From a virus: a stretch of 48,432 nucleotides of DNA. The notes under the pieces were generated by a model. It worked only from the letters and a program-made list of their open reading frames with translations. It was not told the origin of the DNA and searched no databases. The stretch spans positions 1 to 48,432 of the IMG/VR virus record IMGVR_UViG_3300024346_011137; one strand, 5' to 3'. This document shows positions 22,401 through 42,290 of the stretch, piece after piece. The position numbers and the translations under genes are program-made. How positions within the stretch are numbered: position 1 is the stretch's first letter; each line of letters starts with the position of its first letter.

Positions 22401-24344
22401 ATGGAAAATATATTACAAGAGAATAAAAGTCGGTTTGTTTTGTTTCCGATTGAGCATCACGATATCTGGGATTATTATAAGAAGGCTCAACAGGTTTTCT
22501 GGACCGCAGAAGAAATTGATTTATCCCAGGACCTAACAGATTGGGATAAATTAAATGAAGGCGAGAAGCATTTCGTAAAGCATGTTTTGGCATTTTTTGC
22601 AGCTTCTGACGGAATTGTAAATGAAAACTTAGCTGAAAATTTTGTATCTGAAGTTCAATATACAGAGGCAAAGTTTTTCTATGGCTTCCAGATTATGATG
22701 GAAAATGTCCACTGTGTCTCAGGAAATACTTTGATTTTGACTGACCAGGGACAGCTTGATATTAAAGATTGCGTTAATACATATGTCAATGTTTGGAATG
22801 GCGAAGTATTTTCAAATGTATTGATACAAGAAACTGGAATTCAAAATCTTTATCGTGTTAATTTATCTGATGGTAATTACCTTGATTGCACTGATGGTCA
22901 TAAATGGTTGATCCGCACTGGCAATCAGCTTCACCCTGAAAGATGTAAGACTGAACGAATTGAAACAAAAGATTTAAAGGAAGGAGATGTTATTGCTTTA
23001 TTTGAACTACCTGTAGTTCAATGTGAAGACCCAGACTTTTTCATGAATCCTTATATTCACGGTTTCTTCTGTGGGGATGGGAGCTATTCTAATGGATACC
23101 CTTACATCAAATTGTATGGTGATAAAGAAAACTTATTAGAGTATTTCTCTGTAGATTCTTCTAGTAACAAAGATCCTTATAAATTTTATGTAACTTCTAA
23201 AATCAACAAAAATAAATTTTTTGTTCCAGTAAATTATTCTGTTAAAACAAAACTTGATTGGCTTGCTGGATATGCAGATGCAGATGGTTGTGTAAATGTA
23301 AATTCCAGTAAAACAGCAACATCAATTCAAATTAGTTCTATAAATTATGAGTTTTTACTTGAAGTTAAGAATTTATTGGCAACTCTTGGTATACAAACAA
23401 ATATTGTGAAAACAAGAGATTTTAGTCAATCAACTTTTAATTACAATGATGGTACGAGTGGAACATATAATACGCAGCCAGTTTATTGTTTATATATTAC
23501 TGCTACTGATGTTGCTTTATTAAGTGATTTAGGGTTTGCTCCCAAAAGACTCAATCTGTTAATAGATCATTCAATTGTAGCTAAACGTAAATTAGTTAAG
23601 ATTGTAGGAGTTGAAGATTTAAATTGCGCCCAAATGACTTATTGCTTCAATGAACCTGAATTACATACGGGGACATTTAATAATATTCTTACAGGGCAAA
23701 GTGAAACATATTCTCTTTTAATTGATACATACATAAAAGACAAAGATGAACAGAACCATCTTTTCAATGCAATTGATACGGTTCCAGCTGTTCAAAAGAA
23801 AGCAGAATGGGCTCTTAAGTGGATTGGCTCTGAATCTTTTGTTGAAAGATTAGTTGCTTTTGCTGCTGTTGAGGGAATTTTCTTCTCTGGATCGTTCTGT
23901 TCTATTTTCTGGCTCAAGAAGCGTGGATTGATGCCTGGGCTTTCTTTTTCCAATGAATTGATTTCTCGTGATGAAGGCTTGCACACCGACTTTGCAGTTC
24001 ATCTATACAATAATCATATTGAAAACAAACTGTCCAAAGAAAGATTATTAGAGATTATTGACTCAGCTCTTGTAATTGAAAAAGAATTTATTACAGAAGC
24101 ATTACCTGTGTCTTTGATTGGAATGAATTCTAATCTTATGAAGCAATATCTTGAATATGTTTCTGACAGGCTTTTGATGGATTTTGGGGTTGGCAAGGTG
24201 TACAATGCCGAGAACCCATTTGACTTCATGCAAAATATTGCTATGGCTAATAAAACCAATTTCTTTGAGAAGAGAGTGGCAGATTATGTCAAGAGTGGTG
24301 TTGGTGAAGTTAAAGAACAAATCTCATTTGACGAGGACTTTTAA
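22401..24344 (+). CDS. nrdB: Ribonucleotide reductase class I beta subunit with intein
   Basis: A 647-residue precursor. Residues 1-104 and 434-647 form a 318-residue NrdB: HVLAFFAASDGIVNENL (Asp ligand), AKFFYGFQ with the likely radical Tyr, ENVH ligand pair, EGIFFSGSF and SRDEGLHTDF ligands, and a C-terminal SFDEDF tail that docks on NrdA. The sequence resembles eukaryote-type class Ia R2. The conserved ENxH-SETYS block is interrupted after His by a 329-residue intein. After splicing it makes deoxynucleotides with NrdA encoded 2 bases downstream. The ATG is the only in-frame start; its ribosome site lies upstream of a hairpin. Confidence 0.95.
   Translation: MENILQENKSRFVLFPIEHHDIWDYYKKAQQVFWTAEEIDLSQDLTDWDKLNEGEKHFVKHVLAFFAASDGIVNENLAENFVSEVQYTEAKFFYGFQIMMENVHCVSGNTLILTDQGQLDIKDCVNTYVNVWNGEVFSNVLIQETGIQNLYRVNLSDGNYLDCTDGHKWLIRTGNQLHPERCKTERIETKDLKEGDVIALFELPVVQCEDPDFFMNPYIHGFFCGDGSYSNGYPYIKLYGDKENLLEYFSVDSSSNKDPYKFYVTSKINKNKFFVPVNYSVKTKLDWLAGYADADGCVNVNSSKTATSIQISSINYEFLLEVKNLLATLGIQTNIVKTRDFSQSTFNYNDGTSGTYNTQPVYCLYITATDVALLSDLGFAPKRLNLLIDHSIVAKRKLVKIVGVEDLNCAQMTYCFNEPELHTGTFNNILTGQSETYSLLIDTYIKDKDEQNHLFNAIDTVPAVQKKAEWALKWIGSESFVERLVAFAAVEGIFFSGSFCSIFWLKKRGLMPGLSFSNELISRDEGLHTDFAVHLYNNHIENKLSKERLLEIIDSALVIEKEFITEALPVSLIGMNSNLMKQYLEYVSDRLLMDFGVGKVYNAENPFDFMQNIAMANKTNFFEKRVADYVKSGVGEVKEQISFDEDF
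22713..23699 (+). mobile_element. Intein with LAGLIDADG endonuclease in NrdB
   Basis: Residues 105-433 of the precursor. It begins with Cys (CVSGNTLIL), has a block-B-like CTDGHKW, and two dodecapeptide motifs IHGFFCGDGSY and LDWLAGYADADGC, so the homing endonuclease looks intact. It ends NNILTGQ before Ser+1 of the extein. The last residue is Gln rather than Asn and the penultimate is Gly rather than His. Gln-ending inteins are known (Pyrococcus abyssi PolII), so splicing is plausible. The insertion point is between the metal-ligand ENVH and SETYS. Confidence 0.92.
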
Positions 24345-30313: not shown

Positions 30314-30342
30314 TTGTCAATATTTCTACAATGATGTAGAAT
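30314..30342 (+). promoter_or_regulatory. Sigma-70 promoter of the PurA/PurZ-like gene
   Basis: TTGTCA (30314-30319), 17 bases, TAGAAT (30337-30342). The predicted start lies at about 30349-30350, the A of ATG 30350. The earlier ATG at 30341 lies inside the -10 box, so it is unlikely to be used from this promoter. Confidence 0.75.
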
Positions 30343-30349
30343 GTGCATT

Positions 30350-31345
30350 ATGGAAACTTCAACTGTTGATGTAGTTATCGGGATGCAGTATGGCGACGAG
30401 GGCAAGGGAAAAATAGCCAATCAAATGGCTGCATCAGGTGATTATGATTATGTGTTTCGCTTCAATGGAGGAGGAAACGCAGGTCATACAATTTACCTCA
30501 ATGGAGAGAAAATTGTTACACATTTGGTTCCTTGTGGTATTCTGCATGGCATCCCTAGTGTCATTGGTAATGGTTGTGTTATCAATACGAAAAAGTTATT
30601 TGACGAACTTGAGTATCTTGAGACATTTGGATTCGACACATCATTATTAAAAATTGCAGAAAACGCTCATATAATAACTAAAGAACATATCGAAGAAGAT
30701 TCCAAAGATACAATTATTGGAACTACTCGCACTGGAAATGGCCCTTGTTATAAAGACAAAGTTGGTCGCACAGGCCTTCGTGCCAAAGATGTTCCTGAAT
30801 TAGCGCCATATCTAGTTGATATGTATAGTCTTATTCATTCTTCCCCAAAGAAATTTCTAGCTGAAGGTGCTCAAGGGTACTGGCTTGATATTGACTTTGG
30901 TGATTATCCTTATGTCACATCATCAAATACCGGAGTGGGAGCTGTATTAAATAATGGTTTCAATTTTAAGCAAGTACGGGATGTTGTCGGGGTTATCAAA
31001 TGTTATTCTACCTATGTTGGAGCTAAAGGATATCAAAAACACGATGAAAGATTTGAAAAGCTGCGTGAGATTGGTCAAGAGTTTGGAGCCACTACTGGAC
31101 GACCAAGACAAATTGATTGGCTAAATTTCAATGAAGTAATTACAGCTTGCCAAATGAATGGTGTAACCAAGCTAATTGTAAACAAAATGGATGTTTTAGC
31201 TCAAATTGAAAATGGCTGGGATTGGTATCAGGATGGTAAATTACATTTTGTTGATGATGAAGGTTCATTTATGCTTTGTCTTATGAATTACATTGCAAAA
31301 TACAATTCAGATATTGAAGTTGAATTCCAGGGTCAATTACATTGA
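30350..31345 (+). CDS. Adenylosuccinate synthetase family protein (PurA/PurZ-like)
   Basis: A 331-residue protein, shorter than bacterial PurA (about 430) and similar to archaeal PurA and phage PurZ-type enzymes. Motifs: YGDEGKGK P-loop (about 11-18) with the catalytic Asp of PurA retained, GGGNAGHTI (about 36-44), a TTRTGNGPCYKDK loop, LAEGAQGYWLDIDFG and YVTSSNT, then GATTGRPRQIDWL and NKMDVL guanine-binding. PurA joins IMP and Asp; PurZ acts on dGMP towards 2-aminoadenine (Z) DNA. Classical PurZ replaces the catalytic Asp, so this one is ambiguous. No DatZ, MazZ or DpoZ is in the window. The start at 30350 matches the promoter. Confidence 0.88.
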   Translation: METSTVDVVIGMQYGDEGKGKIANQMAASGDYDYVFRFNGGGNAGHTIYLNGEKIVTHLVPCGILHGIPSVIGNGCVINTKKLFDELEYLETFGFDTSLLKIAENAHIITKEHIEEDSKDTIIGTTRTGNGPCYKDKVGRTGLRAKDVPELAPYLVDMYSLIHSSPKKFLAEGAQGYWLDIDFGDYPYVTSSNTGVGAVLNNGFNFKQVRDVVGVIKCYSTYVGAKGYQKHDERFEKLREIGQEFGATTGRPRQIDWLNFNEVITACQMNGVTKLIVNKMDVLAQIENGWDWYQDGKLHFVDDEGSFMLCLMNYIAKYNSDIEVEFQGQLH

Positions 31346-35594: not shown

Positions 35595-38500
35595 ATGAGA
35601 AAACCTTCTCCGGACAAACTAAAACAATACGATCTTAAATCTCAAATGCTACAACACTCAGCTGCTGTAGTTGATTTTTTCAAAGAACAGGGTTTCGAAG
35701 GAGAATTTACAGATGAAATTTTTCCTGAAACAAGGTCTGAAGTATCTCATCCCGCTATACCAGAAAAAACAAGATTTAACCCTGATCAAATTGTAGATAT
35801 TGTTACTTTTATAGAACATCCTTATTTTTGTAACTTAAAACCATACCCTTGGCAAAAATTAATTCTTAAATTGTTCTACATGGGTCAAGAAGGCAACACG
35901 AATCTAGAAATTACTAATTCAGAAAATCAAATTGATTGCGATGGATGTGTATGGTCTTATATCAAAGATAATGAATTAGATTTTTACAATACAAGAAATA
36001 GTCAAAGGCAAGTTAAGACAATCTTTTCAATTACAAATTCACCTTGTGTTCAATGCAAAAGATTAGATCCAGTGGTTAAAGAACACAGATATGAACGTGC
36101 TAATTCTGAAGCTACAAACCCTGATGCTGAAAAAAAAGTAAAAGAGTTTGAAGAAAGAGCAATAACTGACAATTATCAATCTGAAATGGATCTTCTTTAC
36201 TCTGAAGAGTTTGATCCAAAATTAAGAATGCAAGTAGAGACCAAATGTCTTAACAGATACAAATTTGAAGAACTTGTTTTGGTGCTTGGTCGTCGTTCTG
36301 GAAAAGCTCTAAACTTAGAAACACCAGTATATACAATGTCTGGATGGTCTACAATGGGTGAATTGAAACCAGGAGAGTATGTATTTGCCCCTGATGGAAC
36401 TCCTACTAAAATTATTGCTAAGTCTGATGTGGATTATCAAAAGCAAGCATATGAATTAGTATTTAGTAATGGAGATAAAATTGTTGCCTGTGAAGATCAT
36501 GAATGGGTGACATTGACAAAAGCTCAAAGAAAAAATGCATCCAGAGGAAAATATTCAAAAGATCCTGTGCCTCAAGTTTTTACTACACAACAAATCTATG
36601 AATCATTAACATATGGCAATCCAAGACAGATGCTTAAAAAAGGCTCGCAAACTGAAAGAAATGAAAAATTATCTGTTGAGTATAATCATGCTATAGAGAT
36701 TACAAAACCACTTATATTCCCAGAAAAAGAGCTATTGATTCATCCATATCTTTTGGGAGCATGGTTGGGAGACGGTTCACAGTCTTCTTGTCAAATAGCC
36801 GGAATTGATATGGAAATTTTTGATTACATAGAAGCTAACTGTAACCAGACTGTAAAACATTCAGAATACAATAATACTTCTCATTTTATTAAGCCAAATA
36901 ATGAAAGAGATAAAATATTCTTGCACTTAATAAAAGAAATAGGAATATACAAAAACAAGCATATTCCATCGATTTATAAACAAGCTTCTATTGAACAAAG
37001 ATTAGAATTAGTCCGAGGATTGAATGATACAGATGGTTATGTAGATCCTAAAAAATTTACAGTGGAATTTTGTAACACTAATGAAACTCTTGCTTATGAT
37101 TATTATGAATTGGTTTGTGGATTAGGTTTCAAAGCAAGTATAAAAAAATCTGATGCAAAATTATATGGCAAAAAAATATCTGATCGTTGGCGCATCACTT
37201 ATTCTGTCCGTCCTGGAGATAAGGTATTTAATTTATCTAGAAAACAATCGGTATTAGATAACAAAACATCAATAGATAAATCTGATAAATACAGAATTTT
37301 TATCAAGGAATGTAATCTTGTTGCTAATTCTGGTATGCAATGTATACAAGTAGAGCATCCTTCTCATATGTACTTAGCTGGTAGGAGCATGATTCCTACA
37401 CATAATTCATTTCTTGTTTCTGCCATGGCTCTTTATGAGCTTTACAGGCTTCTTTCCATGGGTCATCCACAAGGAAGATATGGGCTCATGGAGTTTGATG
37501 AAATTGTTTTGCTAAATGTTGCTAGAAACGAAGAGCAAGCAAAAAAAGCAATCTTCTCTAAAATCAAACAAACAGTTTTAGCTTCTCCTTACTTTCAACC
37601 TCATATTGGTAAAGATACTGAATTGGAGATGAGATTTTTAAATGATCATGACCTGAAAGAAAATGAAAGAAGAATTGCTTTAGGTCTTAATCAATTTGCT
37701 GGAAGTTTAGTATTAAGATGCGGTTCAAGTAATGCTTCAGGTCTTGTTGGTCTTACTTGTTGGTCAATCATCATGGACGAAGTTGCTGCTATGGCTGGTG
37801 ACAATCCTGATTCAGGCGTTGACAATGAATTGTATGATGAATTAAAACCATCTTTAGCAACCTTTGGTAAAGATGGAAAAATGATGATGCTTTCTAACCC
37901 AAAAGGACCAATTGGGTTACTATTTGATTTACATGAAAATCGACAAGATGATCCAACAACATTAGTATTAAGATTACCAACCTGGCTTACAAATCCTAAT
38001 ATTGATAAAGATTGGCTTGAAAATCAAAAACGCAAAGATCCCAATGAATTTATGATGCAATATGGAGCTGAATTTGGAGCTTCATCATCTGATCCAATGT
38101 TTACTCCTGATTCAGTGCAAAGAATGTTTTCAAGCATGAACATGGTGAAACGTGCTGAACAAGGACATTCTTTACATGAATATTTTTGCCATTTAGATCC
38201 AGCAAGAACTTCAGATTACTATGCACTAGTAATTGGACACGCAGAAAGAATCAATGGAACTATTGGACCAGATTTTCAACCTTTGAGAAGAGTTGTAATT
38301 GATCATATCCATTTTTGGAGTCCAATTTCTAAAAATCAACCTATCTCCGAAAGAGAAGTGGAAGATTATGTAATTGAACTTAATCAAAAATTCAGATTCA
38401 GACAAGTTAGTATTGATCAATGGCATTCTCAATCTTCAATCATCAAACTAAAATCAAGAGGTGTTAACATTGTTGAAAGACAGTTTAATAAAGAATATAA

Positions 38501-38807
38501 AGAAAAAATTTACACTGAACTGACTCAATTAGTAAGAGAAGATAGAATTGATGTTTACGATATTTCAAATGGCAAATACATTGATGCTGGTGGACAAGAA
38601 CAGCATTTGAATGAAATACAAGAAGCTAAAACTCAATTCTTATTCTTACAGAAAAAATGGAAAGGCAAAAGATATTATATTGAAGCTTTATCAGGCTATA
38701 AAGATGATATCTGTGATGCTATTGCTGCAGTGTCTTATGAATGCACCACAAATAAAATTCTACAAAGACTACCATCAAGTAAAATGGTTAGATTTTCTAG
38801 AAGGTAA
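35595..38807 (+). CDS. Terminase large subunit with intein
   Basis: A 1070-residue precursor; without the intein it is 703 residues. The ATPase has Walker A GRRSGK-S (residues 232-237 joined to 605), Walker B SIIMDEVAA and a KMMMLSNPKG coupling segment. The nuclease has HLDPARTSDYYAL, a VSIDQWHSQ and DDICDAIAAV acidic residues. Before the ATPase is a 200-residue extension with two Cys pairs (CDGC at about 115-118, CVQC at about 152-155) that may bind zinc. It packages DNA into the prohead through the portal. The intein sits between Lys and Ser of the P-loop. Confidence 0.93.
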   Translation: MRKPSPDKLKQYDLKSQMLQHSAAVVDFFKEQGFEGEFTDEIFPETRSEVSHPAIPEKTRFNPDQIVDIVTFIEHPYFCNLKPYPWQKLILKLFYMGQEGNTNLEITNSENQIDCDGCVWSYIKDNELDFYNTRNSQRQVKTIFSITNSPCVQCKRLDPVVKEHRYERANSEATNPDAEKKVKEFEERAITDNYQSEMDLLYSEEFDPKLRMQVETKCLNRYKFEELVLVLGRRSGKALNLETPVYTMSGWSTMGELKPGEYVFAPDGTPTKIIAKSDVDYQKQAYELVFSNGDKIVACEDHEWVTLTKAQRKNASRGKYSKDPVPQVFTTQQIYESLTYGNPRQMLKKGSQTERNEKLSVEYNHAIEITKPLIFPEKELLIHPYLLGAWLGDGSQSSCQIAGIDMEIFDYIEANCNQTVKHSEYNNTSHFIKPNNERDKIFLHLIKEIGIYKNKHIPSIYKQASIEQRLELVRGLNDTDGYVDPKKFTVEFCNTNETLAYDYYELVCGLGFKASIKKSDAKLYGKKISDRWRITYSVRPGDKVFNLSRKQSVLDNKTSIDKSDKYRIFIKECNLVANSGMQCIQVEHPSHMYLAGRSMIPTHNSFLVSAMALYELYRLLSMGHPQGRYGLMEFDEIVLLNVARNEEQAKKAIFSKIKQTVLASPYFQPHIGKDTELEMRFLNDHDLKENERRIALGLNQFAGSLVLRCGSSNASGLVGLTCWSIIMDEVAAMAGDNPDSGVDNELYDELKPSLATFGKDGKMMMLSNPKGPIGLLFDLHENRQDDPTTLVLRLPTWLTNPNIDKDWLENQKRKDPNEFMMQYGAEFGASSSDPMFTPDSVQRMFSSMNMVKRAEQGHSLHEYFCHLDPARTSDYYALVIGHAERINGTIGPDFQPLRRVVIDHIHFWSPISKNQPISEREVEDYVIELNQKFRFRQVSIDQWHSQSSIIKLKSRGVNIVERQFNKEYKEKIYTELTQLVREDRIDVYDISNGKYIDAGGQEQHLNEIQEAKTQFLFLQKKWKGKRYYIEALSGYKDDICDAIAAVSYECTTNKILQRLPSSKMVRFSRR
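36306..37406 (+). mobile_element. Intein with LAGLIDADG endonuclease in terminase P-loop
   Basis: Residues 238-604 (367 residues). It begins ALNLETPVYT after GK, so the first residue is Ala, not Cys or Ser. Block B is ACEDHEW. The endonuclease motifs are YLLGAWLGDGS and LVRGLNDTDGY, apparently intact. It ends MIPTHN before Ser+1. Ala-1 places it with class 2-type or terminase-type inteins that start splicing by direct attack from the +1 residue. The site disrupts ATP binding until splicing occurs. Confidence 0.93.
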
Positions 38808-41408: not shown

Positions 41409-41420
41409 CAGGAGAAAATT

Positions 41421-41912
41421 ATGCCTTTACCAATTAAATCATTAAATGATCAAAACATGAATAGTTCAATTTTAGATATGCCAGAAATGTCCACTTTAGG
41501 ATTGTCTGATTTGCAAATTCAATTATTTGGTTTTACACAAACTGAATCTAGAGAAGCATCAAAAATTTCTGACAGACAGCTTATTATGCTTAAACAAATT
41601 GATGCTAATGTTAACGAAGTAGTTACAGCAGCTAATCAAGTTGCTAATATCAAAGATTCTAAAGTTTGCTCTGTACCACAAGATATTACAGATCATGATT
41701 TATTATCTCTTAAAACTGCTGGATTGATTTCAGGATATGGCAGATCTGTAACATTAACAGATAGAGCTAAACTTGCTTTGAGAGATCATTATCTTTCACA
41801 AGAAACTGTAAATGAATTTAAAAAATCTAGAACAAAGAATAAATTTAATTTAGAAGAAGCTAGATCAGTAAAAGCATCTGATAAGCCAAGATTTGTAAAA
41901 GTAGCATCTTGA
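41421..41912 (+). CDS. Hypothetical protein with HTH-like region, ends at UGA before DUF192
   Basis: A 163-residue protein with AGGAGA upstream of its ATG. The middle (about 90-130) reads DITDHDLLSLKTAGLISGYGRSVTLTDRAKLALRDHY in overlapping parts, which looks like a small winged-helix domain. The C-terminus is basic. It ends with TGA at 41910-41912, but the same frame continues open for 126 codons through a DUF192 domain. The UGA product alone looks complete, so both short and long forms may exist. Confidence 0.75.
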   Translation: MPLPIKSLNDQNMNSSILDMPEMSTLGLSDLQIQLFGFTQTESREASKISDRQLIMLKQIDANVNEVVTAANQVANIKDSKVCSVPQDITDHDLLSLKTAGLISGYGRSVTLTDRAKLALRDHYLSQETVNEFKKSRTKNKFNLEEARSVKASDKPRFVKVAS

Positions 41913-41942
41913 CTCACTGATGATGAATTCCGTGATGAATTC
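41910..41942 (+). other. In-frame UGA with downstream stem-loop, candidate readthrough site
   Basis: UGA-CUC at 41910-41915, in the leaky UGA-C context, is followed after 12 bases by GAATTC (41925-41930), a 6-base loop CGTGAT and GAATTC (41937-41942), which pair into a 6-base stem. The reading frame is open on both sides. No ATG, GTG or TTG occurs in frame until 41991. Confidence 0.55.
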
Positions 41943-42290
41943 GATGTAAGGTTTGTAGCAAATACAAATGCTACAAGACAAAAGGGCTTAATGTTTGCAG
42001 AGCCTTTAGATGAATACGAAGTTGTTTTTTTTGATTTTCCTGATGAAGATCAACATAGTTTTTGGAACAACAACGTAGATTTTTCTTTAAGTTTAGCTTT
42101 CTTGGATAACAAAAATGTAATCCTTGATTTCAAAGACCTAAAGGAGCAAGATAAAAAACTTGTTTCTCCAAAATCTAATAAAGTTAAATATGTTGTAGAA
42201 GCAAAACATGGTGTATTTGACAAATTAGGTATAAAAATTGGAGATAAATTGATTTTGAAGGATAAAAAACTTATTTTAAGAAAAAAGTAA
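41913..42290 (+). CDS. DUF192 domain, reachable only by UGA readthrough
   Basis: A 125-residue open segment in the same frame as the preceding gene. It follows the DUF192 pattern end to end: FDVRFVANTNATRQKGLMF, then FFDFPDEDQHSFWNNNVDFS, VKYVVEAKHGVFDKLGIKIGDKL. The domain's first strand starts at about 41943, upstream of the only in-frame ATG (41991), and no Shine-Dalgarno lies before that ATG. So either it is a C-terminal extension made by readthrough, or a broken gene, or a sequencing error turned a sense codon into TGA. Beginning at 41991 would cut the fold. Confidence 0.65.
   Translation, partial: LTDDEFRDEFDVRFVANTNATRQKGLMFAEPLDEYEVVFFDFPDEDQHSFWNNNVDFSLSLAFLDNKNVILDFKDLKEQDKKLVSPKSNKVKYVVEAKHGVFDKLGIKIGDKLILKDKKLILRKK

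Follow-up and report, generated by a model that had tools for sequence, protein, structure and literature searches.

UGA followed by C is a weak stop, and in the coat/A1 system of phage Q-beta a leaky UGA in a phage gene yields both a short and an extended protein. Q-beta is also where in-frame readthrough was first found (PMC8310308). For bacterial SECIS elements, the rules comprise a loop of 3-9 nt, a stem of at least 4 bp and a distance of 16-37 nt from the UGA, with a G in the first two loop positions, mostly as NG[G/U] (PMC13188914), and the SECIS of epsilonproteobacteria is a 5/6-bp hairpin with an invariant loop G (PMC4607533). Huge phages with annotated tRNA-Sec genes have been described and phage-encoded selenoproteins have been suggested (PMC10747093); in the open-licence papers searched we found no phage selenoprotein, and earlier reports may exist elsewhere. 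Here we analysed a gene with an in-frame UGA in an IMG/VR virus record of 48,432 nt (the window), which is a linear piece of a dsDNA phage genome and carries a terminase along with replication genes of bacterial type.

Architecture of the interrupted gene

The gene begins at ATG 41421 on the plus strand, as do all features given below, and direct reading places a Shine-Dalgarno-like AGGAG (41410-41414) 6 nt before this start. Its N-terminal reading frame (41421-41909) encodes 163 aa, with a conserved KF.KV motif just before the UGA at 41910-41912, which is the sole in-frame stop between the ATG and the TAA at 42288-42290. CTC (41913-41915) follows directly, and the downstream frame, consisting of a linker and the DUF192 domain, extends from 41913 to 42290. 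The 125 codons 3' of the TGA belong to DUF192 (PF02643), with a Pfam E-value of 9e-22 over profile positions 5-94 of 96 and a score of 77.5 bits against a curated cut-off of 27. The earliest in-frame ATG, GTG or TTG past the TGA is ATG 41991, at codon offset 26 and inside the domain. An earlier, sequence-only reading of this DNA had described a frame broken by a single TGA and then continued by 125 DUF192 codons with no in-frame start before 41991, and our analysis agrees on both points. It had also reported a UGA-C context with a 6-base stem-loop (GAATTC-CGTGAT-GAATTC, 41925-41942) 12 nt downstream, which is present as described, and the use of UGA as an ordinary stop elsewhere in the window, which we confirm for 12 other genes. 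Reassignment of UGA was rejected, since TGA ends these 12 genes and also 92 gene calls of the 358-kb relative G001, and frameshifting was rejected because the N part and DUF192 lie in one frame.

AlphaFold pLDDT is mostly 80-92 in the DUF192 domain, which Foldseek matches to 3m7a and 3pjy. Confidence is low for the N part and falls below 50 for linker residues 151-170; the UGA residue thus sits in a low-confidence, variable linker. No CxxU-like or redox motif is present at this residue, which counts against a selenocysteine (Sec) reading. The N part matches the profile HTH_Crp_2 at E=0.17, below the cut-off, and the label 'HTH-like' given to it earlier is not established.

Several neighbouring genes have features of their own. 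A gene for UDP-galactopyranose mutase (GLF, PF03275; 39841-40950) separates the terminase from the recoded gene in the phage late region, and the terminase large subunit (35595-38807) is split by an intein-like insertion with LAGLIDADG_3 (PF14528). By-eye reading of the translation alone suggests that a ribonucleotide reductase small subunit-like protein (22401-24344) is interrupted midway by an intein-like insertion (VHCVSGNT...). A short adenylosuccinate synthetase of 334 aa (30341-31345) matches PHROG 1211 ('2-aminooxy adenylosuccinate synthetase') and might be a sign of modified adenine in the phage DNA, although it retains the GDEGKGK motif of PurA.

Constancy of the UGA among relatives

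Scans of IMG/VR yielded many related loci, including contigs 358, 316 and 300 kb long, and gave a first set of 57 distinct sequences and a larger set of 75 distinct sequences that cover the N part and the junction. TGA-CTN is kept in 57/57 of the first set. In the larger set, 73 of the 75 sequences align with TGA in this column and remain open into DUF192, the contig ending first in two; these 73, which are all of the non-split relatives, come from many samples and metagenomes and extend down to ~50% protein identity. The comparison of this codon in related phages, proposed beforehand as a check with sense, UGA or absence as outcomes, therefore returned UGA in every non-split relative. The next codon is CTC in 47, CTG in 25 and CTA in 1, so that UGA-CUN is found in all of them. 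Of the Leu codons of these phages, CTC and CTG together account for just 7.4%, so what is constrained directly 3' of the UGA is the RNA and not leucine alone. Searches of PHROGs and INPHARED gave no fusion relatives.

Purifying selection acts in one frame on both sides of the UGA (pN/pS 0.26 and 0.32 among the 57 relatives), while synonymous sites are strongly diverged, with pS of about 0.55 and dS of about 0.8-1.7 relative to the window. The site combines a conserved stop, selection on both sides and a second part with no start of its own. It is the only TGA with a conserved in-frame extension in five phage genomes (about 770 kb), and among the 52 long ORFs of G001 that end in TGA, CT comes next in one, which is this site. 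These genomes use TAA more than any other stop, and a plain terminator would therefore be expected to have changed. Neither Cys nor any other sense codon occupies the UGA position in any of the 73 relatives, which suggests that both outcomes, stopping and reading on, are needed. A Cys homologue is usual, though not obligatory, for selenoproteins, and its lack here is unusual for a selenoprotein family; an in-frame UGA within a conserved reading frame, as expected of a selenoprotein, is found in 73/73.

G001 is a contig of 358,269 bases (L126-L143) with 424 gene calls and nine tRNA genes. At about 107300 on its minus strand, a TAG is followed in frame by 86 further codons, the first 37 of which include no start.

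The remaining two of the 75 sequences (L021 and L023) have a split version: the TGA and an ATG overlap as ATGA, and DUF192 has a reading frame to itself (L021:5001-5872). A standalone DUF192 with its own ATG is found at L240:2989-3360, with an unrelated gene upstream and the same downstream gene. There is no residue at the UGA position in these split and standalone relatives. The split arrangement shows that DUF192 can act alone and suggests that the selected output is two proteins, whatever amino acid is inserted; these loci are useful controls for the role of the fusion.

A SECIS-like hairpin in changing linkers

In the window, the UGA is followed by a two-storey hairpin (41917-41950). Its SECIS-like upper stem-loop, U-GAAUUC-CGUGAU-GAAUUC-G (41924-41943), begins 11-12 nt after the UGA, and the apical loop CGUGAU (41931-41936) places GU at nt 20-21 after the UGA (41932-41933). 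The lower stem (41917-41922 with 41945-41950) is optional and imperfect in the window.

The linkers of the relatives fall into ten types (A-J) of unlike sequence and length. Type A occurs across several lineages of the tree including deep ones, the deep forks being weakly supported, and the other types look like replacements. The loop CGUGAU is unchanged in 26/27 type A sequences. The outermost pair of the upper stem (41925-41942, nt 13 and 30 after the UGA) is G-C in 19 and A-U in 8 of the 27 distinct type A sequences and broken in none, and two double changes are required for it on the tree. In the lower stem, which is broken in several sequences, the occurrence of UA, CG and UG at one pair gives further support. 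The type A codons for FRDEF after the UGA have a synonymous variation of 0.000 against a gene mean of 0.334, the lowest six-codon window of the gene, and this peptide is absent from the other types.

In nine of the ten types a hairpin starts about 11-15 nt after the UGA and carries an [N]GU or [N]GG loop at 18-23 nt, the apical loops being CGUGAU, GUU, AGUU or UGGAU. The ensemble probability of an [N]G[GU] hairpin in these nine types is 0.72-1.00, whereas only 6.2% of random positions reach at least 0.5. This calculation left out the first 11 nt after the UGA, which would lie inside the ribosome when the UGA is in the A site. Such loops arise in only 2-14% of synonymous shuffles of these peptides, and by minimum free energy (MFE) the [N]G[GU] loop is found in 45/52 distinct sequences; the linker types share ancestry and these fractions are not simply to be multiplied. 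Which codon positions supply the loop letters varies between types. Types G and H align codon for codon, and between them two adjacent pairs have changed on both sides (A-U to G-C and A-U to U-A) while the loop AGUU is constant. Type J retains AGUU but has another best fold, in which the loop is G-first and lacks [N]G[GU].

Loop, stem and spacing together with the G rule of bacterial SECIS are satisfied by 30 of 31 representatives, compared to 15.7% of codon positions in the same phage. With the energy limit added (MFE of -7.5 kcal/mol or lower, a program threshold), the values are 20/31 and 4.1% of background positions; the window hairpin, at -5.5 kcal/mol, misses this limit. Hairpin energy alone is not exceptional against synonymous shuffles and is non-significant for most sequences. 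Therefore, the case for the hairpin rests on loop, spacing and covariation. An Rfam search gave no meaningful match to a SECIS family. Types A and B share the position of the loop GU, nt 20-21 after the UGA, with E. coli fdhF, whose sequence we took from RefSeq and folded.

The codon, the UGA-CUN context, the frame and the [N]G[U/G] hairpin are conserved while the linker turns over, and this comparative evidence strongly supports the UGA as a programmed recoding site. Of the readthrough proposed earlier, programmed decoding is thus upheld and its stem-loop gains compensatory changes and repeated re-invention in unrelated linkers, while the SECIS-type hairpin geometry and the [N]G[U/G] loop speak for selenocysteine insertion, a possibility absent from that reading, more than for generic leakage.

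Decoding of the UGA and relation to known systems

The agreement with the SECIS rules and the fdhF-like position of the loop GU favour Sec insertion through host SelB and tRNA-Sec. We consider it fairly probable that SECIS-directed insertion by host SelB competes with termination at this codon. The ribosome would pause at the weak stop UGA-C, and the hairpin, acting as a bacterial-type SECIS, would recruit host SelB-GTP-Sec-tRNA(Sec) to it; a fraction of ribosomes would then insert selenocysteine and continue into DUF192 while the remainder terminate. One mRNA would thereby give the N-protein alone and an N-Sec-linker-DUF192 fusion, in a presumably defined ratio. The point of the device is probably this two-product output more than the chemistry of a selenium residue, because the codon is never sense (no Cys) and DUF192 is encoded by a coupled ORF of its own in relatives. 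The gene resembles a selenoprotein at the RNA level. We do not file it as a proven selenoprotein, since there is no Cys homologue or redox motif, the phage records searched hold no selB or tRNA-Sec, and the window's own hairpin misses the usual energy limit.

Against Sec insertion, selB was not found in 15 records of these phages and tRNA-Sec was not found in 23. The matches to the tRNA-Sec model, when examined, were tRNA-Ser(UGA), tRNA-Leu and tRNA-Met instead, and no phage suppressor or Sec tRNA that could act as decoder was found in the records searched. Contigs of GTDB genomes contained neither a relative of the N part nor a stretch identical to a phage tRNA piece, giving no clue to the host, and the relatives of TerL and PolIII-alpha, at 36% identity or less, likewise indicated none.

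The alternative that survives best is ordinary programmed readthrough, in which a near-cognate host tRNA (probably that for Trp) would read the weak UGA-CUN at a low rate, aided by the hairpin and free of selenium. We regard it as a possible but rather doubtful explanation. It accounts better than Sec insertion for the invariance of UGA-CUN, which goes beyond known SECIS needs, and it suits the lack of Cys homologues and of Sec genes in the phage records searched, as well as the apparent unimportance of the residue, judged from its linker position and the split relatives; a conserved leaky stop with two products is also the Q-beta type of solution. However, it leaves unexplained why an [N]G[U/G] loop stays at a fixed distance while its stems are replaced, and why the distance from UGA to hairpin, 11-12 nt, is that of the fdhF SECIS.

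Termination at the UGA followed by reinitiation, giving DUF192 as a protein of its own, is the arrangement of the outgroup L021-L023 with its ATGA overlap of stop and start, and it recalls the standalone DUF192 of L240; many type A sequences also have a TTG or ATG that overlaps the TGA. Such a start opens the -1 frame, though, and meets a stop after a few codons (mostly three), and none of the 57 relatives has an in-frame ATG, GTG or TTG before strand 1 of DUF192 (CTG is present in only 15/57). Reinitiation would not need the frame across the UGA, which is nevertheless kept in all 73, and we judge it very unlikely. Hardly credible is a constraint at the DNA level, such as a promoter or operator across the stop: the window has TTGACT, whose TTGAC resembles a -35 box, but other types have CATGACTG, GCTGACTG and AATGACTG, and what is conserved while the linker turns over is paired positions and the loop, with no fixed DNA word. 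A sequencing error or a decaying pseudogene, either of which in the earlier reading would have undone the case, has a negligible chance, since the same codon stands in 73 distinct sequences from many metagenomes with purifying selection on both sides, and the second premature stop in L040, inside DUF192 at residue 252, is possibly a sequence error or a decayed copy.

If Sec insertion at this UGA is right, these phages would possess a recoding site of the selenocysteine type, and their SECIS-like element, rebuilt several times around a changing coding sequence, would be a rare case that offers a natural experiment on what SelB needs. Large phages would then depend on a trace-element pathway of the host, their hosts would be restricted to Sec-decoding bacteria, and genome annotation would have split the N-Sec-DUF192 protein in two. 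It is conceivable, as a tentative extension, that the Sec system serves as a switch and not for redox chemistry: the UGA would decide whether a late-region protein ends or receives its DUF192 extension, and virion composition or host take-over would track the selenium status of the host. If the mechanism is plain readthrough, the locus is still a single-site cassette for UGA readthrough in DNA phages, structured and strictly conserved.

Compared to DUF192 proteins elsewhere (PF02643, COG1430; PDB 3m7a, 3pjy), the domain here is complete by profile and fold, but the phage copy can be reached only via the recoded UGA. The huge phages of PMC10747093 present the opposite situation to the one described here, with tRNA genes annotated and no selenoprotein gene shown. 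With Q-beta coat/A1 the locus shares a leaky UGA in a phage gene and, as predicted here, a short and an extended protein; it differs in belonging to a DNA phage, in its defined SECIS-like hairpin and in the globular DUF192 extension. It resembles the epsilonproteobacterial SECIS in the 5/6-bp hairpin with an invariant loop G (PMC4607533). The closest likeness in geometry is to the SECIS of E. coli fdhF, with UGA-C, a hairpin 11-12 nt later and loop GU at nt 20-21. In contrast to the fdhF/SelB system, the phage site has no Cys homologues or redox motif, its residue lies in a domain linker, and the phage records searched contain neither selB nor tRNA-Sec; the phage stem is weaker and AU-rich, and UGA-CUN is invariant in the phages as well.
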